From: a virus
DNA length: 59,909 bases
Virus record (IMG/VR): IMGVR_UViG_3300017917_004872
Location: 1-59,909 of that record
Strand: one strand, 5' to 3'
Below the pieces are notes generated by a model. The model made no database searches. It had not been told where the DNA came from and saw only the letters and a list, made by a program, of their open reading frames with translations. The stretch's first letter is position 1. Each line of letters opens with the position of its first letter. Both the position numbers and the translations under genes were made by a program. Shown here piece after piece: positions 4,168 to 51,417 of this stretch.

Positions 4168-4659
4168 ATGGGCGACTTAAATTCATTACAATCTTCTTTG
4201 TCTGTTAATATTGTTGATAATGATTCACAGGCAGTTGTTCAAAATACCAACCCAAATGGTACAGAACAAGGATTAATAGTCAGAAATATTCCATCCGGCA
4301 CACAAGGCGTTGCAGAAACCCCAAGTTCTTCATCTACCTATACTCCTAGTTCTTACAGTTCATCAGCTTACGAAAACGGAGCAGCAGCTAAGGCATCTGC
4401 TGGAGTTTTATATGGATTTAGTGGTTACAATAGTAGTAATCAAGGACAATTCATCCAAATTCACAATGCTACAAGCGTTCCAGCAGATACAAGCGTTCCG
4501 AAAATTATTATATGGGCCAATCCGCTAAGTAATTTCTACTGGGATGGTGGAAAATTTGGAATGTACTTTTCAACAGGAATTTCATGGTGCAATAGCTCTA
4601 CCGGACCTACTAAAACTATTGGTAGCACAAATTGTTGGGTGAATTTACTATATTCTTAA
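4168..4659 (+). CDS. Putative virion coat/decoration protein
   Basis: 163 residues. After a Ser/Thr-rich N-terminal half comes a compact domain ([17 protein letters not shown]...FIQIHNA...[17 protein letters not shown]...TIGSTNCW). I recognise this pattern from structural proteins of many phages, where a similar segment ends in a short β-rich C-terminus. It starts with GGAG 8-9 bases upstream and opens the fibre module, 11 bp before the first repeat-fibre gene. A decoration or fibre-base role is inferred from that resemblance and position. Confidence 0.65.
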
Positions 4660-4670
4660 TAGGTTAAAAT

Positions 4671-5240
4671 ATGCCATTCGTAAGTGATTATTTTTCAGCC
4701 ATAAGCGGTAGCATAAGAAGTGGAAATATTGGCAACGCGGCTGTCACATCAGGAAACATCGCTTCTGGCACTATTGGTTCAGTTCACATATCTAATGGTT
4801 CTGTAATTTCAGGAAATATTGGAAGCGGTCAAATTGGATCAATACATATAGCTTCTGGGGTTTTAAGCAATATTTCAGGCAATTTAAATGTGTCATCTGG
4901 GAATATTACAGTTAACACAATAACCGTTAATACCGCAATATTTTCAGGACTAACATCAACTACTACAGTCTATAGTGGAAGCATTTCAGTTGGAATGGCA
5001 GCTTATTTTGATTATGCAACAAAAAACACTTTAACAAGCGGTTATAGGGCAGGAACAGTAACGACAATTTGGGACGAATCAAACGAAACAACAGAATACA
5101 ATGATATGTCAACTCAAGATTTAGGCGGTTCAACTATAGGATTGTCGTTTTCAACATATATTTTGTCTGGAAATTTGCAATTATTAGCTAATGTAAGTTC
5201 TGGATCTTTCAACTTAAAACTAGGCGCTCGATTCATATAA
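4671..5240 (+). CDS. Short tail-fibre protein with SG decapeptide repeats
   Basis: 189 residues. The N-terminal part (about 1-75) is a Ser/Gly-rich ten-residue repeat of the type GSVISGNIGS GQIGSIHIAS, expected to form an elongated β-structured shaft. The C-terminal 85 residues (YDFDYATKN...SGYRAG...DLGGSTIGL...FNLKLGARF pattern) are homologous to the C-terminus of the next fibre protein (YRAG, DLGGSTI and VKVGAR are shared), suggesting a common tip or trimerisation domain. It lacks the LamG head. No classical Shine-Dalgarno precedes the ATG (GGTTAAAAT). Confidence 0.8.
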   Translation: MPFVSDYFSAISGSIRSGNIGNAAVTSGNIASGTIGSVHISNGSVISGNIGSGQIGSIHIASGVLSNISGNLNVSSGNITVNTITVNTAIFSGLTSTTTVYSGSISVGMAAYFDYATKNTLTSGYRAGTVTTIWDESNETTEYNDMSTQDLGGSTIGLSFSTYILSGNLQLLANVSSGSFNLKLGARFI

Positions 5241-5302
5241 TCGCACAAAAAAGATAAAAAAAATATTAAACCTCAAATACATATGTGTATTGTGGGGTGT
5301 TT

Positions 5303-7924
5303 ATGGCGCTACAACATCACTTTATATTTGATACAACCAGTTTTATTTCTGGAACATTATCAGGTGGCGTTTATATAAACTCTATAAATAGCGGTAAGAA
5401 TTTATTAACAAGTGATGGTAGCGATAAATCTTATACTGATGGCAAGATAAACCAAGCACTGAATTACGGTGGTTTTAATTTTAGTGGCACCGCATACAAT
5501 GCATCAAAAATGTTTCCTTCGTCTGGCGGTGCAACGATAGCATTTTGGCTTTATACCAATCAAAATGATATTGGCGGAGGTGATGATATCCACCCATTGT
5601 TCAGAGTAAAAGGTGGATCGCTAGGAACAAACGATTTTTATATAAAATATTATTCATCAGGATCGTTTGGCGGTCTTATGGAGATTACTGATAATTCATC
5701 ATCAGGAAGCTTATTCTTTGAAGCTATTGGAAGTGGTATTAATTATTGGAACCATTATATAATATCAACAAATGGAACAAATTGGTATGCATATGTAAAC
5801 AATGAACTACAAACTCTCACTGGCACAACATTTTTACCAACATTTTATGACAATACAGATTTTATTATAGATTACGGTACAGATTCTTACACATATGCTT
5901 TAGATGATTTAAGAATTTATTATGAAAATATAAGTCTTTCTGAGAGAGCTTTCATATATAATAATGGTGCTGGTACACAAGCTAATAGTAACGCTGGAGG
6001 AAATATGGCTAATGAATTCATAGTTCGTAATGGATTAGTCGTTATTAGCGGGAAAATTAGTGGTACTCTCGCTAATAATATAGTTTTTTCTGGTAATATT
6101 AACTCCGGCCAAGTGGGTTATTACCACTTGGCTTCTGGTGTCATATCCACAGCGACACTTGGTAGCGGTCAAGTTACCTCTGGTGTAATTGCTAGTGGTA
6201 GCGTTGGGCAATTTGCACTTTCTTCAGGTGCTGTTAACAGCGGACAAATTGGCAACGGTGCTGTTGTAAGTGGATCAATTGCTAGCGGTAGCGTTGGTCA
6301 ATACGCAATTGCTAGCGGAAGCATCACAGCAGAACACATTGCCAGCGGTGCTGTAATTAATGCTGATGTTGCGGACAATGCTGTCACATCAGGAAAGATT
6401 GCTAGCGGAACTATCGGAAGTCTTCATATTAGCTCCGGTGGTGTCATTAATGTTAATCTTGGCGATGCATCTGTTAATACAAGAGTATTGGCATCTGGCA
6501 GCGTCAATAACACCATACTCTCTAGTGGTGCAGTTGTATCTGGTCAAATTGGAAATAACGCAGTTGTTAGTGGAAGCATAGCAAGTGGTTCTATTTCCAA
6601 GTTCCATATTGCTAGCGGACAAGTTGTCAAAGCATTGACCCAAGGTACTAATATCACAATTACTGCTGATGCAAATGACAACTATACAATCAATGCAGTA
6701 GTTTCAGGCGGGATTGCTCCATTCATTGTCGCAAGCGGTTTGAGTTTTTCATCTGGTTCATTCTTTGATGGCACTCAATCTGGCGCAATTATTGGAATTA
6801 AGAGCGGTGGCATTATAAGCCAACTTATTGCTGATAATGCAATTGTTTCTGGTAAAATAGCATCAGGAAGCATTGGAATTTATCAGCTTGCTTCAGGTGT
6901 TATATCAACAGCAACACTTGGTAGTGGTCAAGTTACTTCTGGAACAATTGCTAGTGGTAGCGTTGGTCAATTTGCACTTTCTTCAGGTGCTGTTAATAGT
7001 GGACATATTGGTAATGGAGCAGTAGTTTCAGGCAGTATAGCAAGTGGTAGCGTTGGTCAATATGCTATCGCTAGTGGAAGTATTACAGCAGAACATATTG
7101 CTAGTGGCGCGATCATTAATGCTGACATTGCTGATAATGCCGTAACATCAGGAAAGATTGCTAGTGGAACAATTGGAAGCCTTCATATTAGCTCAGGCGG
7201 TGTCATCAATGTTAATCTTGGTGATGCATCTGTTAATACGAGAGTACTCGCCTCTGGTAGTGTTAATAATACCATACTTTCAAGTGGTGCAGTACTAAGC
7301 GGTCATATTGGTAATGCTGCCGTTGTATCAGGAAGCATTGCTAGTGGTTCAATTGGAAGTGTACATTTAGCTGATGGAGCAATTTTATCCGGCGATATTA
7401 GCAGCGGACAAATCGGTCAATACCACATGTCATCAGGAACTTTGTTTAATGTTGCTGCCGCTGGAGTAAACAGAGTCATTACAAGTCTAGCATCTGGCAC
7501 TAACTCTGCTACTGCAAATAGCGGATTTACATTTGATGGTTCAAATTTAAATGTTGGCGTATATAGTGGCTTGACAACATTTGCTGTCACAAGTGGCGGA
7601 TATGTGAAAATACAATCCAGTTTGTTTAGTGGTCAAACAGCAACATTTAACGCTTATCAAATTCCACAAACAGATGGTGTTGCAGCATTTTATGATTATT
7701 ATGTATTCAACCAAGCTAATGGATCATATCGTGCTGGTAATGTTGTTACAACTTGGAACACTTTAAGTGGAATTATTGTTTATAGTGAAACTGGTACTGA
7801 TGACCTTGGTGGATCTACTATTGATCTTCAATGGTCAACTATATTGCAGTCTGGAAATGTTGTTTTGAGATCAACTTTAACTGCTGGTACTTGGAATGTT
7901 AAGGTTGGCGCAAGAGTTTTGTAA
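5303..7924 (+). CDS. LamG-domain tail fibre with SG decapeptide repeats
   Basis: 873 residues. Start at 5303 is preferred over an in-frame GTG at 5285 because GGGGTG lies just upstream and the paralogue at 12805 starts at the same residue (MA..HF.FD.TSFISG). Residues about 1-225 form a LamG/concanavalin-like lectin domain (ends in LDDLRIYYENISLSERAFIYN), a likely glycan binder. Residues about 250-700 are regular decapeptide repeats (G-[ST]-[IV]-x4-[IL]-[AS]-S), with a 153-residue block present twice. The last about 90 residues match the C-terminus of the 4671 protein. Probably a receptor-binding fibre; a 14-bp hairpin follows the stop. Confidence 0.85.
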   Translation: MALQHHFIFDTTSFISGTLSGGVYINSINSGKNLLTSDGSDKSYTDGKINQALNYGGFNFSGTAYNASKMFPSSGGATIAFWLYTNQNDIGGGDDIHPLFRVKGGSLGTNDFYIKYYSSGSFGGLMEITDNSSSGSLFFEAIGSGINYWNHYIISTNGTNWYAYVNNELQTLTGTTFLPTFYDNTDFIIDYGTDSYTYALDDLRIYYENISLSERAFIYNNGAGTQANSNAGGNMANEFIVRNGLVVISGKISGTLANNIVFSGNINSGQVGYYHLASGVISTATLGSGQVTSGVIASGSVGQFALSSGAVNSGQIGNGAVVSGSIASGSVGQYAIASGSITAEHIASGAVINADVADNAVTSGKIASGTIGSLHISSGGVINVNLGDASVNTRVLASGSVNNTILSSGAVVSGQIGNNAVVSGSIASGSISKFHIASGQVVKALTQGTNITITADANDNYTINAVVSGGIAPFIVASGLSFSSGSFFDGTQSGAIIGIKSGGIISQLIADNAIVSGKIASGSIGIYQLASGVISTATLGSGQVTSGTIASGSVGQFALSSGAVNSGHIGNGAVVSGSIASGSVGQYAIASGSITAEHIASGAIINADIADNAVTSGKIASGTIGSLHISSGGVINVNLGDASVNTRVLASGSVNNTILSSGAVLSGHIGNAAVVSGSIASGSIGSVHLADGAILSGDISSGQIGQYHMSSGTLFNVAAAGVNRVITSLASGTNSATANSGFTFDGSNLNVGVYSGLTTFAVTSGGYVKIQSSLFSGQTATFNAYQIPQTDGVAAFYDYYVFNQANGSYRAGNVVTTWNTLSGIIVYSETGTDDLGGSTIDLQWSTILQSGNVVLRSTLTAGTWNVKVGARVL
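6137..6595 (+). repeat. First copy of a 459-bp in-frame duplication
   Basis: Encodes 153 residues starting GVISTATLGSGQVTSG and running through NAVVSGSIASGSI. The same block recurs 759 bp downstream at 6896-7354 with nearly the same protein and mostly synonymous base differences. The copies encode whole decapeptides, so gain or loss keeps the frame and the shaft register. Confidence 0.8.
6896..7354 (+). repeat. Second copy of the 459-bp in-frame duplication
   Basis: Second copy of the block at 6137-6595. Protein differences are few (for example NSGHIGN for NSGQIGN and LSGHIGN for VSGQIGN), while many third codon positions differ, so the duplication is not recent or is under purifying selection. 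Confidence 0.8.
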
Positions 7925-7950
7925 AAAAAAATTATTTATTCACATCATTT

Positions 7951-7981
7951 AATCCAATTATTAATTATTAATAATTGGATT
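7951..7981 (+). terminator. Hairpin after the LamG fibre gene
   Basis: Perfect 14-bp inverted repeat (AATCCAATTATTAA, loop TTA, TTAATAATTGGATT) 26 bp after the stop at 7924, followed by ATTATTTTAAC. AT-rich, so a modest intrinsic terminator. Together with the TATAAATA box at 8012 it separates the 8061 gene into its own transcription unit. Confidence 0.6.
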
Positions 7982-8011
7982 ATTATTTTAACAATAAATC
8001 TATAATTAAAG

Positions 8012-8019
8012 TATAAATA
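8012..8019 (+). promoter_or_regulatory. T4-type late promoter box TATAAATA
   Basis: Exact match to the T4 late promoter -10 consensus, 41 bp upstream of the ATG at 8061, which has its own AAGGGTG Shine-Dalgarno. It follows the hairpin at 7951-7981, the arrangement expected for an independent late unit. Confidence 0.6.
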
Positions 8020-8060
8020 AAAACAGGAAAATTATGTGAAATTGGAACAAGGGTGCTGTA

Positions 8061-8951
8061 ATGGCTGTTATCATCAAAGGACAAACTTCGATAGGATATG
8101 TGAAAAATATCTATGCCACCTTCACTTCCGCCACAACCACGCAAGTGTTCACCTCCTCAACCGTCGGCGCTGTCACCTTGGCGGTACAGTTGAGTGATCC
8201 GAACGGTGAAACTCTGAATTTCGCAAATACTTCTGTGACATTCTACAACGCTGTGACTGGTAATGTGATCACCGGCGGCAGCAATATCGGGGTTAACTCC
8301 AGTGGCATCGCCTCGACCACTGTAAACCTCTCAGGTGGTGCCACTATAGTCAGGGAACAAACTTACCTGATTCGGGCGGTGATCACCAAACGATATACCA
8401 ACAAAAGGCAAGTGTTCCCCGCCACCACTTGGACTTCGACCAATTTTGATGCCTACACCGTGGTGACAGTGATCAGGACACCGAGTCCGACGACGAACTG
8501 GATTCAGGGTAGCGGTTCCTACTCCAACAATGCTGCCTCAGGCACGATTACCAACGCTAGCTCAATCGGCAACAACTGGTACGGATTCTCAACTGACGGC
8601 ACCACGGGTCTGAACGCTGGCTCAATCGAACTGTTCATGCCTAGGGCGGACGGGATTTATTACCTACGCTCGTCCTCGACATCCACACTAACGGGAACGG
8701 GATCGGGGCGCACAGTGACAGCGATTGGACAACTGACCAAGATCACTTCCAATGGTAGCAGCACCTCCCAGTCCTCAGTTGCGCCGAATGTGGCGACCAC
8801 CTTGCAGGTCAAGGATGCGGCTGATGCCGATCAGGTGCAATTCTCCATCACCAAGACCAACAGTGGTGTGACCACTAACTATTACCTTGATAATTCACTG
8901 ATCACGATATCGGATCCTGTAAACAATCAGAATGGAGTCAAGATTTATTAA
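8061..8951 (+). CDS. GC-richer Ig-like structural protein, moron-like
   Basis: 296 residues, Ser/Thr-rich and β-predicted; residues about 40-120 (QLSDPNGETLNF...SGIASTTVNLSGG) look like an Ig-like/invasin-type fold, the rest is unrecognised. Codon usage is unlike every neighbour: individual 60-base lines reach roughly 48-55% G+C against about 35-40% around it, with frequent GTG, CTG, ACC and GGC codons. It is bracketed by a hairpin and a TATAAATA box upstream and another hairpin downstream. Position within the fibre module suggests a virion or fibre-associated part; composition suggests recent acquisition from a different genome. Confidence 0.7.
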   Translation: MAVIIKGQTSIGYVKNIYATFTSATTTQVFTSSTVGAVTLAVQLSDPNGETLNFANTSVTFYNAVTGNVITGGSNIGVNSSGIASTTVNLSGGATIVREQTYLIRAVITKRYTNKRQVFPATTWTSTNFDAYTVVTVIRTPSPTTNWIQGSGSYSNNAASGTITNASSIGNNWYGFSTDGTTGLNAGSIELFMPRADGIYYLRSSSTSTLTGTGSGRTVTAIGQLTKITSNGSSTSQSSVAPNVATTLQVKDAADADQVQFSITKTNSGVTTNYYLDNSLITISDPVNNQNGVKIY

Positions 8952-9022
8952 TCAACTGCATAAACAACAGTTTTAAAACCACTCCACAGTAAGCCACAGC
9001 GTTATACTACCTAGCACCTAGA

Positions 9023-9039
9023 TCTGATGAAACATCAGA
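9023..9039 (+). terminator. Short hairpin after the GC-rich gene
   Basis: TCTGATG, loop AAA, CATCAGA: a 7-bp perfect stem with a tight loop, 71 bp after the stop of the 8061 gene. No clear T-tract follows, so intrinsic termination is uncertain. Confidence 0.35.
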
Positions 9040-9080
9040 GATTATACAAAATTATAATTCATTAAAAATGAGATATGATT

Positions 9081-9088
9081 AATAAATA
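9081..9088 (+). promoter_or_regulatory. Late-promoter-like box AATAAATA
   Basis: One mismatch from the T4 late box; 17 bp before the ATG at 9106, with a good AAGGAG Shine-Dalgarno in between. Same octamer as at several leftward genes in this window. Confidence 0.45.
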
Positions 9089-9105
9089 AAATAAAGGAGA
9101 AATTC

Positions 9106-9420
9106 ATGGATATTCAACCAATTATATCATCAAATCCTGTAACAACCGATCCGGTCCCAGCTAAGACATATGATACATGGTTTTTGACCAATTTTCGTCT
9201 TAGTGCAACAGGTGACCGTAAATTTGTGGCAGAAGTATTCTGGCAATTAGGAAAACTTAACGCTGACGGAACATCTGAAATGTCAGATAAAACAGTTAAC
9301 CATTTCATTCCAGATTTATTGAATCCTGAAACAATTGCTACAAATCCAGAGATTGCACAATTAGTGCCTAATTTCTTATCAACTCTTGAAATTGTCAGCA
9401 AAAGAGCAAGTATTATTTGA
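9106..9420 (+). CDS. Hypothetical protein in fibre module
   Basis: 104 residues, strong AAGGAGA Shine-Dalgarno and an AATAAATA box upstream. Contains WFLTNFRLSATGDRKFVAEVFWQLGK, a β-strand-like stretch, and an acidic C-terminal half. No family recognised. Lying between a structural gene and a large fibre gene, it could be a virion component or fibre chaperone; this is positional inference only. Confidence 0.6.
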   Translation: MDIQPIISSNPVTTDPVPAKTYDTWFLTNFRLSATGDRKFVAEVFWQLGKLNADGTSEMSDKTVNHFIPDLLNPETIATNPEIAQLVPNFLSTLEIVSKRASII

Positions 9421-9479
9421 TTGCAAAGCATAGATAATTATAAGAAATTTCCTTTTGGATAGTGAAAAAAGGTACATGA

Positions 9480-12400
9480 ATGTCAGACTTTATGATCAAG
9501 AAGGGGCTTCTTCTTGACGATCAAGCCCCAGCTAAATTTGTGGATGCATCTGGAGTGCTTTATGTGAGCATTAAGGCTCCAAATATAGTAAATTCAGGCA
9601 ATGTGTTCATCACCCTCCCAGCCGGTCAACCAGCCAGCGGAACCATATTAATCGCCAATGCCTCTGGCGAATTGTGCTGGTGCCCGATATTAAAATCTGG
9701 AGATGTAACATCTGGATTTATTGGAAACAATGCCGTAGTTAGCGGAAGTATTGCCAGCGGAAGTGTGGGTTCTGTTCATTTATCTGATGGAGCGATATTA
9801 AGCGGAGATATTAGTAGCGGTCAAATTGGACTTTATCACTTAGCATCTGGTACTGTTCTATCAGGTACATTCTTGCTTTCTGGCAATGTTACATCAGGTT
9901 ACTTAGGCAACAATTCAGTAAACTCTGGCAATATAACTGCCGGAACAATAAGAGACATTCATATTGCTACAGGTGGTTTATTAAGTGGATCAATTGGAAG
10001 CGGTATTATTGGTTCTGTTCACCTAGCTGATGGAGCAGTTCAATCTGGAGATATTAGTAGCGGACAAATAGGAATTAATCATTTAGCATCTGGTACAGTA
10101 AACAACTTCTTTACTTCAGGATTTATTGCTTCTGGGATGATAGGAAATGCTGCTGTTGTTAGTGGAAGTATAGCGAGCGGTCAAATTGGAGCCAATCATA
10201 TAGCTTCTGGTGTTCTTTCTGCTGGATTAACTTCTGGAAGTGTCACTAGTGGTTACATTGGTAACGCTGCCGTTGTTAGTGGATCAATAGCAAGTGGCAG
10301 CATTTCTGGTCCTCATTTAGCTTCCGGCGTTATCAATGCCGTTTCTGGTAATGTAAAGATCACTTCTGGAAGTCTTAGTGTAAACACTATTTTCTCTACT
10401 AGTGGAAATATTGGTGTTGGAGCAGACATAACTATTAAAGGTGCCGATGCAGTAAGTTCTGGTGCTGGTGGAAGTATTATTTTACAACCGGGAGCGCAAT
10501 CGGTTACTGGTGGTAATGGCAAAATTATAGTTAAAGGTGCCACGGGCAATAGTGCAAATCTACAAGAATGGCAAGACAGCGCAGGCACAATTTATGCCAG
10601 AATCAATGCTTCTGGCGAATTTTTTGGACTAATTGCATCGGGTGTTGTTAATTCTGGCGCAATTGCATCTGGTCAAGTTGGCATCAATCATTGCTCCTCT
10701 GGCACATTGTTTACTTTGACCAATCCATCGACAAACAGAATAGTCACCAGTCTTGCATCTGGAACGAATTCTGCAACTGCTAACACTAATCTGACATATG
10801 ACGGCACAACATTTTTAGCCAATTCAACAACCAGTGGAAGCACAGTTGTTAGCGTTACAGGTCAAGCAGGTCAATTGTTTTCAATTACAGATAGCAATAC
10901 AGGAGACATTTATCAAGTAGGAGATATTATTGGTTTTCCAATATTGGCTGTTAATACAAGTGGTTATGTAAAAGTTAAAAATCAAATTATAATTCAAAGT
11001 ATTACTGGGCAATCAGGAAATACCCAAGAATGGCAAAATACAAGTGGCAATGTTGTTGCAAGAATTAATATTTCTGGTGAATTTTATGGACTAATCGCAT
11101 CAGGTGTTGTTAATTCTGGTTCAATAGCATCGGGTCAAGTAAGTATCAATCATTTAGCCTCTGGCACAGTTAATAGCTTCTTTATTTCTGGGTTTGTTAC
11201 CTCTGGGATGATTGGCAATAATGCTGTTGTTAGTGGAAGCATAGGAAGCGGACAAATTGGCGCAAATCACATAGCGTCTGGTGTTCTTTCTGCTGGATTA
11301 ACTTCTGGAAGTGTCACTAGTGGTTACATTGGTAATGCTGCCGTTGTCTCTGGAAGTATTGCTAGTGGAAATATTGGAAGTGTTCATTTGGCTGATGGAG
11401 CAGTTCTTTCTGGAGATATATCTAGTGGACAAATTGGACTTTATCACTTGGCTTCTGGAACTGTTCTATCAGGTACATTTGTTACATCTGGTAGCGTACA
11501 GAGTGGAAATTTAGGAAATGCATCTGTAGCAAGCGGAAGTATTGCAAGTGGAAGTATCGGTTCTGTTCATTTGGCTGATGGAGCAGTTCTTTCTGGAGAT
11601 ATATCTAGTGGACAAATAGGACTTTATCACTTAGCATCACGTACTGTTCTTTCTGGAACATTTGTCACATCAGGTAGTGTACAGAGTGGAAGTTTAGGAA
11701 ATGCATCTGTAGCAAGCGGGTCAATTGCCAGCGGTATTATCGGTTCTGTCCATTTATCTGATGGTGCAATTCTGTCTGGAGATATTTCAAGTGGACAAAT
11801 TGGACAGTTCCACCATGCTAGCGGAAGTGTGACAAGTGGTCATATTGGCAATGCTGCTATAGCAAGCGGAAGTATAGCTAGTGGAGTTATAGGTTCTGTT
11901 CATTTGGCTGACGGAGCAATATTAAGCGGTGATATTAGCAGCGGTCAAATTGGGCTATATCATCTTGCTTCAGGCACAGTTTTTTCTGGTACATTTGTTA
12001 CATCTGGTAGTGTGCAAAGTGGGTCACTTGGTAATGCTGCCGTAGTAAGTGGTAGTATTGCAAGTGGAAGTATCGGTTCTGTTCATTTGGCTGATGGAGC
12101 AGTTCTTTCTGGAGATATATCTAGTGGACAAATAGGACAATTCCATCATGCTAGCGGAAGTGTGACAAGTGGGCATATAGGTAATAATGCTGTCGTATCT
12201 GGATCAATTGCTAGTGGGCAATTGGGACAATTTCATCTGAGTAGCGGATCTGTTACATCGGGAAATATATCAAGTGGAAGTATAAGTCAATTTAAGCTAG
12301 CAAGCGGAGCAATTAATAGTGGTCACATTTCAGATAATTCTGTTTTTAACAACATAATTGCATCTGGTAGTGTTCAAAGTGGCAAACTATCAAACGCATC

Positions 12401-12761
12401 AGTTGTGTCAGGTAGTGTAGCAAGCGGTCAGATTGATAGCCCTCATATTGCTAGTGGAGCAATTAAATCTTATCATTTGTCTTCTGGAGCAATACTTTCT
12501 GGATCGAGTGCCATAGGAATAGGGGCTATTACGAGTGGTCAAATTGCTTCTGGATTACTTGGCGGTTCATCATCATTAACTAGCGGACAAGTAACATCTG
12601 GTTTTATTGGAAATAATGCAGTTGTAAGCGGAAGCATAGCAAGTGGACAAGTATCATACCCTCATATTGCAGTTATTTCTGGATTTTTAATAGGGCAAGC
12701 TTTAACTATAAATTATTCCGGTTCACTATTTTTTAGTTATGTTGATGGAGGATCATTCTGA
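9480..12761 (+). CDS. Giant tail-fibre protein, SG decapeptide repeats
   Basis: 1093 residues. A short N-terminal attachment-like segment (about 1-75, FMIKKGLLLDD...SGNVFITLP) is followed by long runs of decapeptide repeats, in which units with IGSVHLADGA or IGLYHLASGT recur many times. Two non-repeat islands near residues 290-390 and 410-530 carry QEWQDSAGT/QEWQNTSGN-type motifs (…ARINASGEFFGLIASG and …ARINISGEFYGLIASG), themselves an internal duplication. The C-terminus is short and differs from the other fibres. One repeat reads ASRTVL where others have ASGTVL. Expected trimeric shaft; no lectin head is visible. Confidence 0.82.
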   Translation: MSDFMIKKGLLLDDQAPAKFVDASGVLYVSIKAPNIVNSGNVFITLPAGQPASGTILIANASGELCWCPILKSGDVTSGFIGNNAVVSGSIASGSVGSVHLSDGAILSGDISSGQIGLYHLASGTVLSGTFLLSGNVTSGYLGNNSVNSGNITAGTIRDIHIATGGLLSGSIGSGIIGSVHLADGAVQSGDISSGQIGINHLASGTVNNFFTSGFIASGMIGNAAVVSGSIASGQIGANHIASGVLSAGLTSGSVTSGYIGNAAVVSGSIASGSISGPHLASGVINAVSGNVKITSGSLSVNTIFSTSGNIGVGADITIKGADAVSSGAGGSIILQPGAQSVTGGNGKIIVKGATGNSANLQEWQDSAGTIYARINASGEFFGLIASGVVNSGAIASGQVGINHCSSGTLFTLTNPSTNRIVTSLASGTNSATANTNLTYDGTTFLANSTTSGSTVVSVTGQAGQLFSITDSNTGDIYQVGDIIGFPILAVNTSGYVKVKNQIIIQSITGQSGNTQEWQNTSGNVVARINISGEFYGLIASGVVNSGSIASGQVSINHLASGTVNSFFISGFVTSGMIGNNAVVSGSIGSGQIGANHIASGVLSAGLTSGSVTSGYIGNAAVVSGSIASGNIGSVHLADGAVLSGDISSGQIGLYHLASGTVLSGTFVTSGSVQSGNLGNASVASGSIASGSIGSVHLADGAVLSGDISSGQIGLYHLASRTVLSGTFVTSGSVQSGSLGNASVASGSIASGIIGSVHLSDGAILSGDISSGQIGQFHHASGSVTSGHIGNAAIASGSIASGVIGSVHLADGAILSGDISSGQIGLYHLASGTVFSGTFVTSGSVQSGSLGNAAVVSGSIASGSIGSVHLADGAVLSGDISSGQIGQFHHASGSVTSGHIGNNAVVSGSIASGQLGQFHLSSGSVTSGNISSGSISQFKLASGAINSGHISDNSVFNNIIASGSVQSGKLSNASVVSGSVASGQIDSPHIASGAIKSYHLSSGAILSGSSAIGIGAITSGQIASGLLGGSSSLTSGQVTSGFIGNNAVVSGSIASGQVSYPHIAVISGFLIGQALTINYSGSLFFSYVDGGSF

Positions 12762-15660
12762 TTTAAAATTACTAATACAATAAAAACGAAATTGGAGTTT
12801 ATTAATGGCAATCATCAATCATTTTACATTTGATTTAACAAGTTTTATTTCAGGAACATTGTCTGGTGGCGTTTATATAAACACCATAAATAGTGGCAGA
12901 AATATATTAACAAGCACTGCCGGAGACAAGTCTTTTCCAAGTGGAAAAATAAATCAAGCAATGCAATTTGGAGGTTTTAATTTTAGTGGTAACGCATATA
13001 ACTCATCTGTAATGTTTCCGTCTTCTGGAGGAGCGACAATTGCTTTTTGGTTTTATGGAGAACAAAATGATGTTTCAATTGATCCTGTCCACCCACTACT
13101 AAAGGTGAAAGGAGGCTCCCAAGGTACAGGAAATTTCTATTTAAAATTTTATTCATCAGGCGGACTTGGTGGATTTATGGAAATTTCTGATGGTTCTTCT
13201 GGCAGTCTTTTTTTTAGTGCAGTAGGAAGCGGCGTCAATTATTGGAACAATTGTATAATATCTACTGATGGAACAAATTGGACAACTTATATAAACAACA
13301 TACAACAAACTCCTACTGGCACAACATTTTTGCCAACATTTTACAATAATACTGATTTTATTATAGATTATGGCACAGATTCTTACACATATGCTATAGA
13401 TGACTTGAGAATTTATGACACGGCAATTAATTCTTCTGAAAGAGCTTTTATTTTTAATCTGGGATCAGGAACTCAAGCTGATTCTGGTGGCACACCTGTA
13501 GCTTTAACAGCAGGAAATAATATTGTAAAAGGTTATTCTACAAAACCGATATATCCTCAACCATCAATAGTAATACTTAATAGCGGTGGCACTCTTGAAA
13601 GCACAGCTACAAATACTGTTTATGCCAGTGTTGTCAGCGGAAGTGCCACTATTGGTGGAAGCACTAATGTTGCTGCTGTAAACGGTGTGGCAACATTTTC
13701 TGGTCTTACATTGACAGGATTTGGTTCTGTAGGATTGAAATTTACTGCTTCTGGCTTATCTGGAACTTTTAGCCCATTGTTTAATATTACAAATTCCATG
13801 CCAGTAATGCCAATTAGATCGGAAAATGCCGGTGTAGTTCCCACAAGTGGAAATCTACAAATTGGTGAATTGGCTATAAACATAGCAGATCAAAAAGGAT
13901 ATGTTAAAAAATCAGATGGTACAATAGTAACTGTATTCCAAGCTGGTGGATCTATAACTAGTGGACAAATAACATCTGGGTATATTGGTAATAACGCTGT
14001 CGTTAGCGGATCAATTGCCAGCGGAAGCATTGTACAGTATCATATGAGTTCTGGATATCTTTTGAGTCTCATTCGTGCTGGTGTAGCTCTTGGTTGGGGT
14101 GCTGGTGGGCAAATAACCGATCCAACAAGTGCCGGTAACTTATTTATAGGCACTGATGCTGGTCTAGAGGATGCTAGTGGCAACTCAGTTACTTCTATAA
14201 ATGACTCTACGATTATTGGACAAGGTGCAAAAGTACTTAATACATCAGGTGATGTTGCTGAAATTGTCATAGGCGCATATTCATATGGATTTGGCTCATA
14301 TACGACAGCAATTGGCAATGAATCCACAATGTCAGGTAAAATTTATGGCAATATAAATTTTCCTCATGGATTATATTGGCACTCCGGTTACATATCTTCT
14401 GGTGGTCCGTTAATTTCCACATTTGGTTCAGGTGTTATTTTAAGCGGGAATATAGCAAATGCTGCCGTCGTAAGTGGGTCAATAGCCAGCGGACAAGTAG
14501 GACAATTCCATCTTAGTAGTGGTTCTGTAACAAGCGGGGCAATTGCTAGCGGACAAGTAGGACAATTCCATCTTAGTAGTGGTTCTGTAACAAGTGGGGC
14601 AATTTCTTCAGGTGTTGTGGGTATAAACCATCTATCAAATGGTTCTGTCAGAAGTGGTGCAATTGCTAGTGGACAAGTAGGACAATTCCAACTTGCCAAC
14701 AATAGTGTATATTCAGGCGCTATTGCGAGCGGTCAGATTGATAGTCCACACATTGCTAGTGGAGCAATTAAATCTTATCATTTGTCTTCTGGAGCAATAC
14801 TTTCTGGAAGCAACGCCATAGGAATAGGAGCAATTACCAGCGGTCAAATTGCATCTGGCTTACTGGGAGGAGGTGTTGCTTCATTAACTAGTGGACAAAT
14901 AACATCTGGATTCCTTGGCAATGCTAGTGTGGTGAGCGGTAGTATAGCCTCCGGTCAAATTGGGCTGAATCACTTAGCATCTGGAGTTGCAGTCGGCGGC
15001 GGTCCAGCCACCATAACCAGCGGACAAATTACATCTGGATTCCTTGGCAATGCTAGTGTCGTATCTGGAAGCATTGCTAGTGGAACTTTGGGGACATTCC
15101 ACTTTAGTTCAGGTGCTGTGCTATCAGGTAATATTTCTAGTGGACAAATAGGAATAAATCATTTGGGAAGTGGAGCAGTGAGTTCTGGTGCAATTGCTAG
15201 TGGAAGTATAAGCCAATTCAAATTAAGCAGCGGCACTGTCAATAGCGGTCAATTAGGAAACAATGCTGTTGTAAGCGGAAGTATTGCTAGCGGTCAAATA
15301 GACTCGCCTCACATTGCTAGTGGAGCAATTAAATCTTATCACTTATCTTCAGGAGCAATACTTTCAGGAAGCAACGCCATAGGAATAGGAGCAATTACCA
15401 GCGGTCAAATTGCATCTGGCTTACTTGGAGGAGGTGTTGCTTCATTAACTAGCGGGCAAATAACATCTGGATATATTGGTAATAACGCTGTTGTAAGCGG
15501 AAGTATTGCTAGCGGTCAGATAGACTCGCCTCACATAGCAAGTGGAGCGATTAAATCTTATCATTTGTCTTCTGGAGCAATACTTTCTGGATCTAATGCC
15601 ATAGGAATAGGAGCCATCACAAGCGGACAGATTGCATCTGGTTTACTAGGTGGAGGTGTT
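12431..15660 (+). repeat. Dispersed about 135-bp block shared by two fibre genes
   Basis: A block encoding IDSPHIASGAIKSYHLSSG followed by AILSGSNAIGIGAITSGQIASGLLGG occurs once near the 3' end of the 9480 gene (from about 12431) and three times in the 12805 gene (from about 14733, 15295 and 15517). DNA identity is high enough for homologous recombination or slippage between the genes or within the second one. Boundaries are approximate. Confidence 0.75.
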
Positions 15661-17076
15661 GCTTCATTAACTAGCGGGCAAATAACATCTGGATATATTG
15701 GTAATAATGCCGTTGTTAGCGGTAGTATTGCTAGTGGACAAATATCATTATTTGCCATAGGTTCTGGTGCGGTTGGTTCAGGAAGACTTGGAGCATCATC
15801 AGTCAACTCAGGAAATATAGCCAGCGGTCAAATTTTTAACCTATCGTTAGGTTCGGGCGCAATAAGATCTGGAGCAATTGCTAGTGGACAAATAGGAAAC
15901 AATCACTTTGGAAATGGTGCGGTAAGGTCTGGAGCAATTGCTAGTGGGCAAATAGGTCAAACTCACATAGCAGATAATGCTGTCGCATCTGGTAATATTG
16001 CTAGTGGTAGCATATCTCAAAATCACTTGTACACAATAAGCTATCCTGCTAACGGATATGTTTTAACCACAGATGGTACTAATTTTGATTGGGCATTACC
16101 CACAGCATTTCTTTCATCTGGTTCTGTAGTATCTGGCAATATAGGAGACAATGCTGTAACATTTGGTAATATTGCTAGTGGTTTGCTTCTGGAATCACAA
16201 ACAATAACAAAAACAACATTCTTAAACAATTTTAGAATTGGTTTGCAGTCTGGCGTAGCTGTAAACCCAGATAATACAACAAGCGGTGCAGTTTTGTATT
16301 TAAATCCATATGATGGCTGGACAATTAGTTTATATAATGGCAACGAATGGACTCAAGCAAATACTTCTGGTACATGTGTTAATTTAGATGTTGGAGGTTC
16401 TGTCTTTTCAGGCAAAAATTATGATGTTTTTGCCTATGTAAATAGCGGATACTTTCAACCCAATTTAGAATTATCTGCCGAATGGACAACAGCCAGTACC
16501 AGATATGATCCTATTTATTTTCTTGATGGAATACCAGTTAAATCTGGAGATTTTACACGAAGACTGGTCGGAACAGTAAGAGCAATTCAAGACGATGTAT
16601 TATGCGACAGTCTGCAAAACAGACTAGTCTCAAATATCAACAATAAAGTCAGGCAGGGCATGTTTTATTATAGTCCCGATGGACCGCACACATTTAACAC
16701 AACATCAGGTGTTAATCAGAGAATTTGGGCTAATAATAGCGGAAACCAAATTACTTGGATTTCTTGCTTCAACAACTCAAATCCCGGCATGGCATGTCAT
16801 TTTGCTGGGCTTGCAAAAACGGGAGGAATTGGTGGAATTATTCAAAACCCCACTCCAAGGGCACTTGCCGTTTCAACAGCATTTGATGGCTCTTATGCTC
16901 CAGCTATTTTGATAAGAACATCAGGTTTCAGCTACGGAGCAAGCCCTTCAACTTCTCTTATTTCTACAATCGGACTGAACTACTATCAAATATTTGAAGG
17001 CATGTTCGGCGCTGTTAGCAATTCGGGAATAATGCAAGCTACTGACTTGATCATATATGGAGGCGTAGATGTCTAA
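12805..17076 (+). CDS. Largest LamG tail fibre (1423 aa), multi-domain
   Basis: Residues about 1-225 are a LamG-like lectin domain paralogous to that at 5303. Residues about 230-335 are Ig-like. Next comes a segment with IGELAINIADQKGYVKKSDG, resembling the N-terminal fold of phage tropism-determinant proteins, then a YadA-head-like stretch (SYTTAIGNESTMSGKIYG). Long decapeptide repeats fill residues about 540-1080, and an about 300-residue C-terminal domain (from about 1120) is unrelated to the other fibres. Inverse-repeat-free but rich in near-identical DNA blocks. The stop overlaps the next ATG by 8 bp (ATGTCTAA). Likely the main receptor-binding fibre. Confidence 0.85.
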   Translation: MAIINHFTFDLTSFISGTLSGGVYINTINSGRNILTSTAGDKSFPSGKINQAMQFGGFNFSGNAYNSSVMFPSSGGATIAFWFYGEQNDVSIDPVHPLLKVKGGSQGTGNFYLKFYSSGGLGGFMEISDGSSGSLFFSAVGSGVNYWNNCIISTDGTNWTTYINNIQQTPTGTTFLPTFYNNTDFIIDYGTDSYTYAIDDLRIYDTAINSSERAFIFNLGSGTQADSGGTPVALTAGNNIVKGYSTKPIYPQPSIVILNSGGTLESTATNTVYASVVSGSATIGGSTNVAAVNGVATFSGLTLTGFGSVGLKFTASGLSGTFSPLFNITNSMPVMPIRSENAGVVPTSGNLQIGELAINIADQKGYVKKSDGTIVTVFQAGGSITSGQITSGYIGNNAVVSGSIASGSIVQYHMSSGYLLSLIRAGVALGWGAGGQITDPTSAGNLFIGTDAGLEDASGNSVTSINDSTIIGQGAKVLNTSGDVAEIVIGAYSYGFGSYTTAIGNESTMSGKIYGNINFPHGLYWHSGYISSGGPLISTFGSGVILSGNIANAAVVSGSIASGQVGQFHLSSGSVTSGAIASGQVGQFHLSSGSVTSGAISSGVVGINHLSNGSVRSGAIASGQVGQFQLANNSVYSGAIASGQIDSPHIASGAIKSYHLSSGAILSGSNAIGIGAITSGQIASGLLGGGVASLTSGQITSGFLGNASVVSGSIASGQIGLNHLASGVAVGGGPATITSGQITSGFLGNASVVSGSIASGTLGTFHFSSGAVLSGNISSGQIGINHLGSGAVSSGAIASGSISQFKLSSGTVNSGQLGNNAVVSGSIASGQIDSPHIASGAIKSYHLSSGAILSGSNAIGIGAITSGQIASGLLGGGVASLTSGQITSGYIGNNAVVSGSIASGQIDSPHIASGAIKSYHLSSGAILSGSNAIGIGAITSGQIASGLLGGGVASLTSGQITSGYIGNNAVVSGSIASGQISLFAIGSGAVGSGRLGASSVNSGNIASGQIFNLSLGSGAIRSGAIASGQIGNNHFGNGAVRSGAIASGQIGQTHIADNAVASGNIASGSISQNHLYTISYPANGYVLTTDGTNFDWALPTAFLSSGSVVSGNIGDNAVTFGNIASGLLLESQTITKTTFLNNFRIGLQSGVAVNPDNTTSGAVLYLNPYDGWTISLYNGNEWTQANTSGTCVNLDVGGSVFSGKNYDVFAYVNSGYFQPNLELSAEWTTASTRYDPIYFLDGIPVKSGDFTRRLVGTVRAIQDDVLCDSLQNRLVSNINNKVRQGMFYYSPDGPHTFNTTSGVNQRIWANNSGNQITWISCFNNSNPGMACHFAGLAKTGGIGGIIQNPTPRALAVSTAFDGSYAPAILIRTSGFSYGASPSTSLISTIGLNYYQIFEGMFGAVSNSGIMQATDLIIYGGVDV

Positions 17077-49298: not shown

Positions 49299-49589
49299 AT
49301 GATGCCAGCATCATCAGAAAAACAAAGAAAATTTTTTGGTCTAGTTTATAATTGTAAAACAAAAGGTGACTGCCCTGAGAATATTAAAAAAGTTGCAGAT
49401 AGCATGACTGTTGATCAAATTAGAGATTTTTTGAAAGTTGAATCACTAACAGGATTTAAAGAGTTTTTTTTAGTTACAGAGGAGAGAAACATGAATTGCA
49501 AATGTAAATGTGAAGGTTGCAAAGTAGATTGCAAAAAATGTTCTTGCAAAAAGTGCAAATGCGAAGGGTGTAAGTGTTCTGGTAAGTAA
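49299..49589 (+). CDS. DUF3008-like protein with Cys-rich metallothionein-like tail
   Basis: 96 residues. MMPASSEKQRKFFGLVYNC, VADSMTVDQIRDFLK is the small phage DUF3008-like domain. It is followed by TGFKEFFLVTEERN (a targeting-tag-like segment) and then 32 residues with 11 Cys in CxC/CxxC spacing separated by Lys. The tail begins with Met at 49491 and is preceded by GAGGAGAG, so a shorter product is likely. Starts 5 bp after the GT9-like gene. Confidence 0.75.
   Translation: MMPASSEKQRKFFGLVYNCKTKGDCPENIKKVADSMTVDQIRDFLKVESLTGFKEFFLVTEERNMNCKCKCEGCKVDCKKCSCKKCKCEGCKCSGK
49491..49589 (+). CDS. Possible separate 32-residue Cys-rich peptide
   Basis: Internal ATG with AGAGGAGAG 5-9 bases upstream, better than the outer start. 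Product MNCKCKCEGCKVDCKK... has 11 Cys and 11 Lys in 32 residues, a density typical of metallothioneins. Could be made as an independent metal-binding peptide from the same mRNA. Confidence 0.5.
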   Translation: MNCKCKCEGCKVDCKKCSCKKCKCEGCKCSGK

Positions 49590-49904
49590 TTATAAACTTC
49601 TTATAAAAATAATTATTTCACCAATAACTTCAATTTTTCCCATCACATCTTGAAATTCTTCTTGAGTCATTTGATTTAATTTTAAATCAGAAATGTACTT
49701 CTTATACTCTTTTTTAAGATGATCCTTCAAGCTATCTAATCCATCATTTTTGTATACAGTAAGAGCATCCTTATAAGGTTTTTCTTTTGCTCTAAAATGA
49801 AAATATGTTAATTTTGCGTAACCACCTTTTTCCTTAGCTTTCTTTTCAATATCTTCTGCACCTTTTTTTCTTGTTCTTAAAAATTCAATTAATTTATCAT
49901 CCAT
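49590..49904 (-). CDS. Small conserved phage protein
   Basis: 104 residues, helical and charged; LRTRKKGAEDIEKKAKEKGGYAKLTYFHFRAKEKPYK resembles small proteins in other large phages. AGAGGTG Shine-Dalgarno. Adjacent to the Cys-rich gene with no gap between stops. Function unknown. Confidence 0.65.
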   Translation of the reverse strand: MDDKLIEFLRTRKKGAEDIEKKAKEKGGYAKLTYFHFRAKEKPYKDALTVYKNDGLDSLKDHLKKEYKKYISDLKLNQMTQEEFQDVMGKIEVIGEIIIFIRSL

Positions 49905-49962: not shown

Positions 49963-50985
49963 ATGAATTTTGACGAAGCGGTTTATAGCGATTCAGGTTT
50001 AGGCAAGTGGTACAATCGTGAAAAATGGGTTGACATTAGCCGTAAAGACAAATCTGGAAAGCATCCTCCTTGTGGCGCAAGCGCAGGAAAAGGCCGTAGA
50101 AAGAAAAATCAAAAGTCTTCTTATCCTAAATGCCGTCCTAGTGCAGAAGCGTCCCGCATGAGCAAGAGTGAAAAAAAACGAGCAGTATCGCAAAAAAGGC
50201 GAGCAGAATCCAAATCAAGTCACACCGGAAAAGGTCGAAGTCCGGTCATGGTTAGTCATAAGAAAAAAAGGAAGAAAATGGACGAGAATACACAAAACTT
50301 CAACGAATCAAAGAAAAAGAAGCCAAGTAAAAACAAACCTAATAATCCAACATTATGGGCTTCATGTATCGCTGCAGCAAAGGAAAAATTTGATGTATAT
50401 CCATGTCTTCCAATAAGTTACGCTGCTTTAACTCCAGATGGTGAAAAATACTTTAATGAACTTAAAGTTGGTGATGAAATTTATGCTTTTGATTTAGCAA
50501 AAAAAGAAAAAGTAATTACAAAAATTATTGAAATGAATAAATTTCAAGATGCTCCAACTTTGGACATTTATGCTGATGGACATTATTTTTGCACAGCCAC
50601 ACATAATCACAAATGGGTTGTTGAAATAAACGGATCATATGACCTAGTAGAAACTCAAGATTTAAATCAAGCTGAAAAATTGTTTGTGGATAGTAACAAA
50701 GAGTTTTTAACGAATATTGAACACAATACAGGTTTTGTTGATGACGTTTGGTGTCCCACAACCTCAGAAGGAACCTGGTACACAGTTATAAATGGAGAAC
50801 CTTGCGTCACAGGTAATTCAGCCTATGCGAATTTATGGGCAAGCAAAGAATACAAAAGACGAGGGGGCACTTGGCGTAAAGGCAAATCTTCAAAACGCAA
50901 GAATATGATAACAGAATCAAACGAAAAATTTCAACGCTTTTGTGATTGGATAGAATCACGACATCCTGACTTCAATGAATCATAA
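49963..50985 (+). CDS. DUF5872-like phage protein split by a mini-intein
   Basis: 340 residues. Extein part 1 (1-147): SGLGKWYNREKWVDISRKDK, CGASAGKGRRKKN..YPKCRPS, RMSKSEKKRAVSQKRRAE, then NPTLWASCIAAAKEKFDVYP. Extein part 2 (286-340) resumes SAYANLWASKEYKRRGGTW. Joined, they give the KFDVYPSAYAN...YKRRGG motif of a basic phage protein family. Between them is an intein (148-285). Spliced product would be 202 residues, strongly basic, possibly head- or DNA-associated. AAAGGAAC precedes the ATG. Confidence 0.88.
   Translation: MNFDEAVYSDSGLGKWYNREKWVDISRKDKSGKHPPCGASAGKGRRKKNQKSSYPKCRPSAEASRMSKSEKKRAVSQKRRAESKSSHTGKGRSPVMVSHKKKRKKMDENTQNFNESKKKKPSKNKPNNPTLWASCIAAAKEKFDVYPCLPISYAALTPDGEKYFNELKVGDEIYAFDLAKKEKVITKIIEMNKFQDAPTLDIYADGHYFCTATHNHKWVVEINGSYDLVETQDLNQAEKLFVDSNKEFLTNIEHNTGFVDDVWCPTTSEGTWYTVINGEPCVTGNSAYANLWASKEYKRRGGTWRKGKSSKRKNMITESNEKFQRFCDWIESRHPDFNES
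50404..50817 (+). other. Mini-intein (138 residues, Hint domain)
   Basis: Residues 148-285. Block A: CLPISYAALTPDG...LKVGDEIYAFD with catalytic Cys1. Block B: TATHNHKW with the T-x-x-H. C-terminal blocks F/G: WCPTTSEGTWYTVINGEPCV then TGN before Ser+1. No endonuclease domain. The residue before the last Asn is Gly, not the common His, an atypical splice junction. Insertion exactly at Ser of VYPSAYAN. Confidence 0.9.
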
Positions 50986-51003: not shown

Positions 51004-51417
51004 TTATGAACTTATAACATATTCATTTATCTCTTCGTAGATATTTTCAAATGGGTTGTTAAATAAATAAGTAAAACATAACATTCTATTCAACATCATC
51101 ACACTTAATTTATAACTTGGTTCTTCCTTAATATCAACTGAATCTAATCCAATAAAATCAAACTTGAAAAGACCTGTTGATACTGCTTCATAATTATGTG
51201 TATCAACTAATGTTTGTCTATCAACCTCGTAAATTTCACCCTCAATTGAATTTGTTCCATGTTCTGTTTTAACTAGTCCAGGAAAACTACCACAATCAAG
51301 TAGTTTGTATTCTGTAGTTGAATATCCAAAACCTAAAAATCTTGAACCCTTAATTAAGTGGTGTGCCCTATATCCCTTTTTCAGAGTCCCATACACAAAA
51401 AGAGGTACTTTCTTCAT
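51004..51417 (-). CDS. Gamma-glutamylcyclotransferase-like protein (GGCT/AIG2)
   Basis: 137 residues. FVYGTLKKGYRAHHLI is the conserved YGTLRxG substrate loop; GSFPGLV, EGEIYEV and the catalytic-type Glu in HNYEAVSTGLF complete the fold. Family members release 5-oxoproline from gamma-glutamyl compounds. The ATG overlaps the clpX stop by one base, so they are coupled. Confidence 0.88.
   Translation of the reverse strand: MKKVPLFVYGTLKKGYRAHHLIKGSRFLGFGYSTTEYKLLDCGSFPGLVKTEHGTNSIEGEIYEVDRQTLVDTHNYEAVSTGLFKFDFIGLDSVDIKEEPSYKLSVMMLNRMLCFTYLFNNPFENIYEEINEYVISS

Follow-up and report, generated by a model that had tools for sequence, protein, structure and literature searches.

A mini-intein with a Gly-Asn junction in the DUF5872 module of a small basic phage protein

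The window, by which we mean the whole stretch of DNA analysed here, is a viral record, 59,909 bases long, that carries helicase, clamp-loader and ParB-like genes, many genes that look like glycosyltransferase and methyltransferase genes, and several long fibre-like ORFs (4168-17076, +) with dozens of 'SGxIGxxHIASGxVxSGxIASGS' repeats. No tRNA genes were found in the 59,909-base window. Our analysis concerns a gene on the + strand (49963..50985), whose ORF translates into a precursor of 340 aa, corresponding to 202 aa once spliced. Both flanking genes (49590-49904 and 51004-51417) are located on the - strand, opposite to the host gene. Two genes upstream of it, a 96-aa ORF (49299-49589, +) ends in a Cys/Lys-rich tail (MNCKCKCEGCKVDCKKCSCKKCKCEGCKCSGK) of metallothionein-like look, and PHROG 30268 spans only the N-terminal part of this ORF.

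Residues 148-285 of the 340-aa ORF form an insert of 138 aa (50404..50817, +; C148-N285), which is in frame with the host ORF, introduces no frameshift and leaves 202 aa when subtracted. The coordinates and residue numbers given for it in a preliminary description, made from the DNA letters alone, turned out to be exact. The junctions read ...KFDVYP, then CLPIS...PCVTGN, then SAYANLW..., with the insertion point at FDVYP|SAYAN; without the insert, the window protein reads KFDVYPSAYANLWASKEYKRRGGTW, 202 aa in total. The N-extein contains a basic N-terminal module matched by PHROG 23735 (49996..50217, +; E=2e-9), a family without assigned function, and ends with the first half of a DUF5872 module, namely helix 1 up to FDVYP at the N-junction (50338..50403, start approximate, +; placed by PHROG 27331 and the structural model). 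The C-extein (50818..50982, +; from translation and model) comprises helix 2 of this module (SAYANLWASKEYKRRGGTW) and a C-terminal tail, and its residue 1 is the Ser+1 of SAYAN (50818..50820, +), as identified by comparison with empty sites. We rejected the idea that GC content marks the intein as foreign, since its value (0.326) matches the window mean (0.327), though it lies below that of its own gene's exteins (0.39-0.41).

The host had been described as a small basic protein of the DUF5872 type, which was borne out through intact relatives above the Pfam cut-off. The DUF5872 profile (PF19197, Pfam) gave no match at E<10 with the spliced window protein; two relatives with an empty site reached 37.0 and 29.7 bits at a gathering cut-off of 27.5, and 23 of 28 empty relatives were matched at E<0.01. 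The window host shares with PF19197 members the pattern NPxLW...KFDVYPSAYANxWxxxxYKxRGG, but unlike them its module is interrupted by an intein and missed by Pfam. Many DUF5872 relatives are stand-alone proteins of ~50 aa, and in phage C72C1 (L006, 1474-1880) the PHROG 23735 module and the DUF5872 module are adjacent separate genes. The match to PHROG 27331 crosses the junction and appears only in the spliced protein; a fold search with the DUF5872 module found no match. The module is predicted as two helices with the P|S insertion point in the loop between them (pLDDT 78.9, moderate confidence). As the insert splits these two predicted helices, the hairpin should not be able to form in the precursor.

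Comparison with intein-free homologues had been named in the preliminary description as a check, together with the claim that removal of the insert restores a conserved motif. Employing degenerate DNA patterns at the junction, run on viral contigs, we found alleles of the site, while the window intein alone, used as query for related loci in viral contigs, found nothing. A motif scan returned the uninterrupted motif YPSAYANxW in at least 120 viral contigs, the motif also stands in phages C72C1 (TVYPSAYANAWAAKEYKRRGGTW) and S-BM3 (FDVYPSAYANGWAAKEYK), and the scan with the degenerate pattern returned 45 viral contigs with Gly-Asn directly before the site motif. In 45/45 of these, the Gly-Asn pair closes a block G of intein type, mostly of the form ...VWCP(T/E)T...TGN, and in the complete filled alleles the insert opens with Cys immediately after F-x-x-YP. 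All 45 inteins share an identical residue boundary, and the closest pairs of filled and empty flanks show 87% DNA identity over 150 nt and join in register. Both the precise junctions and the restored motif claimed for the mini-intein hold at the level of the population, with at least 120 contigs empty at the exact point and 45 filled. Presence and absence at one site thus indicate that the insert is not a normal domain. The intein is confirmed, and 45 fillings at the same boundary together with the matching flank pairs show that the arrangement is not due to chance. No cellular carrier was found in a single scan of genome contigs, which gave one chance match (L191) without intein. As far as the literature and records examined show, the host protein and the insertion site are new for inteins, and a small basic phage protein is thereby added to the known intein hosts; the element itself is a known kind of intein.

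Searching Pfam, PHROG, NCBIfam and PDB sequences with the window intein alone was uninformative. The HMM check proposed in the preliminary description was accordingly weak for this copy (Pfam Hint, E=0.1, below cut-off), which is too diverged to be recognised by Pfam, but clear for its relatives: Intein_splicing matches 15 of 28 members of the allelic family (best 1.2e-6), and in a profile search of the PDB with the 28-member family the NrdJ-1 and AceL NrdHF inteins rank first. An AlphaFold model of the intein shows a confident Hint fold (pLDDT 92.8, pTM 0.85). Among the PDB fold matches listed, 50/50 belong to inteins, BIL domains or Hedgehog Hint domains, including AceL NrdHF (TM 0.80), NpuDnaB (0.76) and NpuDnaE (0.76); class 3 inteins occur among the structural matches and BIL domains among the top ones. 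In an alignment of 28 allelic inteins (27 relatives and the window), 17 columns are invariant, including C1, T66, H69, W71, C117, T136, G137 and N138.

These residues map to Cys1, the block A nucleophile (50404..50406, +), block B THNHKW with Thr66 (B:7), His69 (B:10) and Trp71 (B:12) (50599..50616, +), block F VWCPTTSEGTW with Cys117 at F:4 (50746..50778, +) and the block G end Thr136 (G:5)-Gly137 (G:6)-Asn138 (G:7) (50809..50817, +). The marks of an intein are present with a position-1 nucleophile (C1), H69 (B:10), N138 and S+1. Cys1, TxxH (T66-H69), Gly137-Asn138 and Ser+1 had all been described before, whereas the accompanying Trp-Cys-Thr triad and the allelic series had been overlooked. 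The absence of an endonuclease domain, also claimed earlier, follows from the distance of only ~45 aa between TxxHxW and the block F Cys, which leaves too little room. We conclude that the 138-aa mini-intein is real and very probably active in splicing. That the insert is instead an ordinary inserted domain of the DUF5872 protein, in frame and free of frameshifts as it is, seems extremely unlikely in view of the Hint fold, the invariant splicing-block residues and the recurrence of this type of intein in host proteins that are unrelated, PolA, portal and terminase proteins among them.

The Gly at the penultimate position had been singled out as atypical. It is noncanonical, but not special to this protein, since it recurs at the site in other contigs and in other phage inteins. 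Scans of viral contigs for Gly and for His at G:6 of this site returned 45 Gly-Asn and 0 His-Asn ends. As the pattern used to find the 45 alleles itself requires Gly, a less biased figure comes from 17 phage intein loci that were picked up through block F only, with the junction unconstrained and some near-duplicates included, in which Gly occurs 14 times, Ser twice and His once. At the site, and more widely among phage inteins of the VWCPTT group, Gly-Asn is the rule. Inteins ending this way also occur in portal, terminase, methylase and phosphoesterase proteins, and phage PaulScherrer has such an end in its annotated DNA polymerase intein. Judged by these sequences, a Gly-Asn end is ordinary among phage inteins, and mycobacteriophage inteins frequently lack the penultimate His (PMC5050341). 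Small Gly-Asn inteins may also be of use as splicing tools.

Given that neither a penultimate nor a block F His is present (block F carries Thr where His is usual) and that BIL domains rank high in the fold search, one might suspect a cleavage-only (BIL-like) Hint domain or a decayed intein, from which the precursor or fragments would persist. We consider this highly improbable, as Ser+1, Asn and the exact empty site are retained and the relatives are under strong purifying selection. Moreover, the AceL NrdHF intein lacks both His residues, yet splices within minutes (PMC7891396), and the Bethlehem RDF intein with penultimate Gly splices completely, while its G316H variant is much slower (PMC5050341). 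In the light of these tested precedents, the window junction is noncanonical but known.

The Bethlehem gp51 RDF intein resembles the window intein in Cys1, TxxH, VWC in block F, the Thr-Gly-Asn end and Ser+1 (PMC5050341), but differs by Val at B:12, a full endonuclease region (317 aa) and an unrelated host protein. It was compared via its orthologue in phage Nepal, identified as such by the name of the host protein and by its 317 aa, Gly316 and Arg157; this orthologue ends with VWCLRVPNGRFF...LTGN/S. Likewise, the DNA polymerase I intein of Justusliebigvirus and Phapecoctavirus, annotated in Escherichia phage PaulScherrer, shares Cys1, TADHRW and DVWCPQT...TITGN with the window intein at ~37% identity over the aligned parts, but is 245 aa long, includes a LAGLIDADG-like part, is followed by Cys+1 and has a polymerase as host.

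The residues W71 (B:12), C117 (F:4) and T136 (G:5) make up the full class 3 triad and are invariant in 28 sequences. Their company with Cys1 and TxxH, which are marks of class 1, is the less expected feature of the family. An automated count gave Trp at B:12 in 28/31 alleles and the alignment has Trp in 28/28 including the window; the non-Trp cases are most likely misreadings of overlapping TxxH motifs such as TATHNH. The Trp-Cys-Thr triad has been described as exclusive to class 3 inteins (PMC7664689), which have no position-1 nucleophile and generally no Thr at B:7 (PMC6195587, PMC5050341), and Cys at F:4 by itself is known in class 1 (PMC4031507). With the class 3 inteins MchDnaB1, MsmDnaB1 and AceL NrdHF the window intein shares Trp (or Met)-Cys-Thr at B:12, F:4 and G:5 and the Hint fold. 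Unlike them, it has both a position-1 nucleophile and Thr at B:7, and its G:6 residue is Gly instead of the class 3 His, which AceL also lacks. Across the site, Cys1 is present in 31/31 distinct alleles and Thr B:7 is likewise kept, so that position 1 is occupied by a nucleophile throughout.

Which residue starts the reaction? An active intein with a class 3-like start, in which Cys117 at F:4 attacks the N-junction and Cys1 is dispensable, would have the triad as its working machinery and count as a class 3 intein in which Cys1 survived. This would agree with the spacing of the triad in class 3 structures, where W follows two residues after H, T 19 residues after C, and x-N comes next: H65/W67/C124/T143 in MchDnaB1 (PMC7664689) and W67/C118/T137/N139 in MsmDnaB1 (PMC6195587) correspond to H69, W71, C117, T136 and N138 here. 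Ser+1 is favoured by class 3 inteins (PMC5222942), and such inteins are among the fold matches. Nevertheless, this chemistry is unlikely, since Cys1 is conserved in 31/31 alleles and Thr B:7 is retained, whereas class 3 inteins have no position-1 nucleophile and generally no Thr at B:7 (PMC6195587, PMC5050341). For class 3, an origin from a phage intein after loss of residue 1 has been proposed (PMC3196547). The Cys1-Trp-Cys-Thr family has the sequence that might be expected of a class 3 progenitor, which we offer as a lead. A further, rather doubtful step would be to regard the family as a mechanistic link from class 1 to class 3, a living form of that progenitor, in which the N-extein passes from Cys1 to Cys F:4 and on to Ser+1, or either cysteine starts, and Asn cyclises without His. 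Carrying Cys1 along with the triad, the family bears on the question of how class 3 inteins arose.

We favour, with a probability of about 0.88, a splicing-competent mini-intein in the helix-helix loop of DUF5872; splicing is inferred. The element would be the shortened version of an intein that many environmental phages carry, as a family of alleles, at this site. In the unspliced precursor, the helical hairpin of DUF5872 could not close. Cys1, strained by Thr66 and helped by His69, would form a thioester with the N-extein, which would then move to Ser+1 either directly or via Cys117 (F:4), a residue presumably lying between the junctions in place of the usual Asp. Finally, Asn138 would cyclise with no His at the penultimate position or in block F, releasing the 138-aa intein and the 202-aa protein.

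Control of the host protein by splicing was raised as a possibility in the preliminary description. Splicing might act as a switch, for instance a redox switch involving Cys1 and Cys117, that times the release of the DUF5872 protein during infection. Two active-site cysteines, an insertion dividing two predicted helices and the class 3 intein MsmDnaB1, whose splicing is blocked by H2O2 via the F:4 Cys (PMC6195587), would be in line with such a role. The sporadic occupancy of the site (45 filled, at least 120 empty), however, is easier to reconcile with a mobile element than with a switch on which the phage depends, which makes regulation of this kind improbable.

Beyond this site, we observed a broad group of phage inteins (L054-L070, L002 and L192-L195) with a VWC-type block F and T(G/S/H)N ends, hosted by portal, terminase, polymerase, methylase, phosphoesterase and PhoH-like proteins. 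Most members of this VWC group in viral contigs have Cys1 and HxW alongside the block F Cys and Thr.

Most alleles at the DUF5872 site have a size of 237-263 aa, while L025 has 163 aa and the window, L028, L045 and L049 have 138 aa. What the long alleles have in addition aligns, over 64 columns, with the second half of LAGLIDADG regions found in other phage inteins (hhalign probability 94.6%), and since it aligns to this half only, at most one LAGLIDADG-like half is carried; no Pfam endonuclease domain was seen in the long alleles tested. In the tree, the four 138-aa inteins form one clade (support 100/100) with L025 outside of it. As most alleles at the site keep one LAGLIDADG-like half, the 138-aa element would be a reduced allele whose clade probably lost the endonuclease part rather than never having possessed it, and this is the simplest reading. 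The stem branch of the clade is long (1.93), and for this reason the 138-aa inteins could also stem from an independent invasion of the site. The site offers a natural allelic series, from empty sites and alleles of 237-263 aa carrying half an endonuclease to those of 163 aa and 138 aa, which is useful for studies of intein reduction.

The inteins of the relatives are under purifying selection, with dN/dS of ~0.06-0.12 between L028, L045 and L049 and ~0.05-0.15 among most larger alleles. The window copy shows dN/dS of ~0.2-0.45 against its nearest relatives, a range that resolves selection on it poorly owing to near-saturated dS and 49-53% identity. The single LAGLIDADG-like half (REVFLASAIVYDGHD) of the 237-263 aa inteins (L009-L053) is under purifying selection in many phages and may function as a homodimer or represent a relic. 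One further contig (L021, 3476-3502 region) has a DUF5872 gene with only the final intein stretch (LWAAAMVQDGVICVTGN/SAYAN), either an intein remnant formed by deletion or a misassembly.
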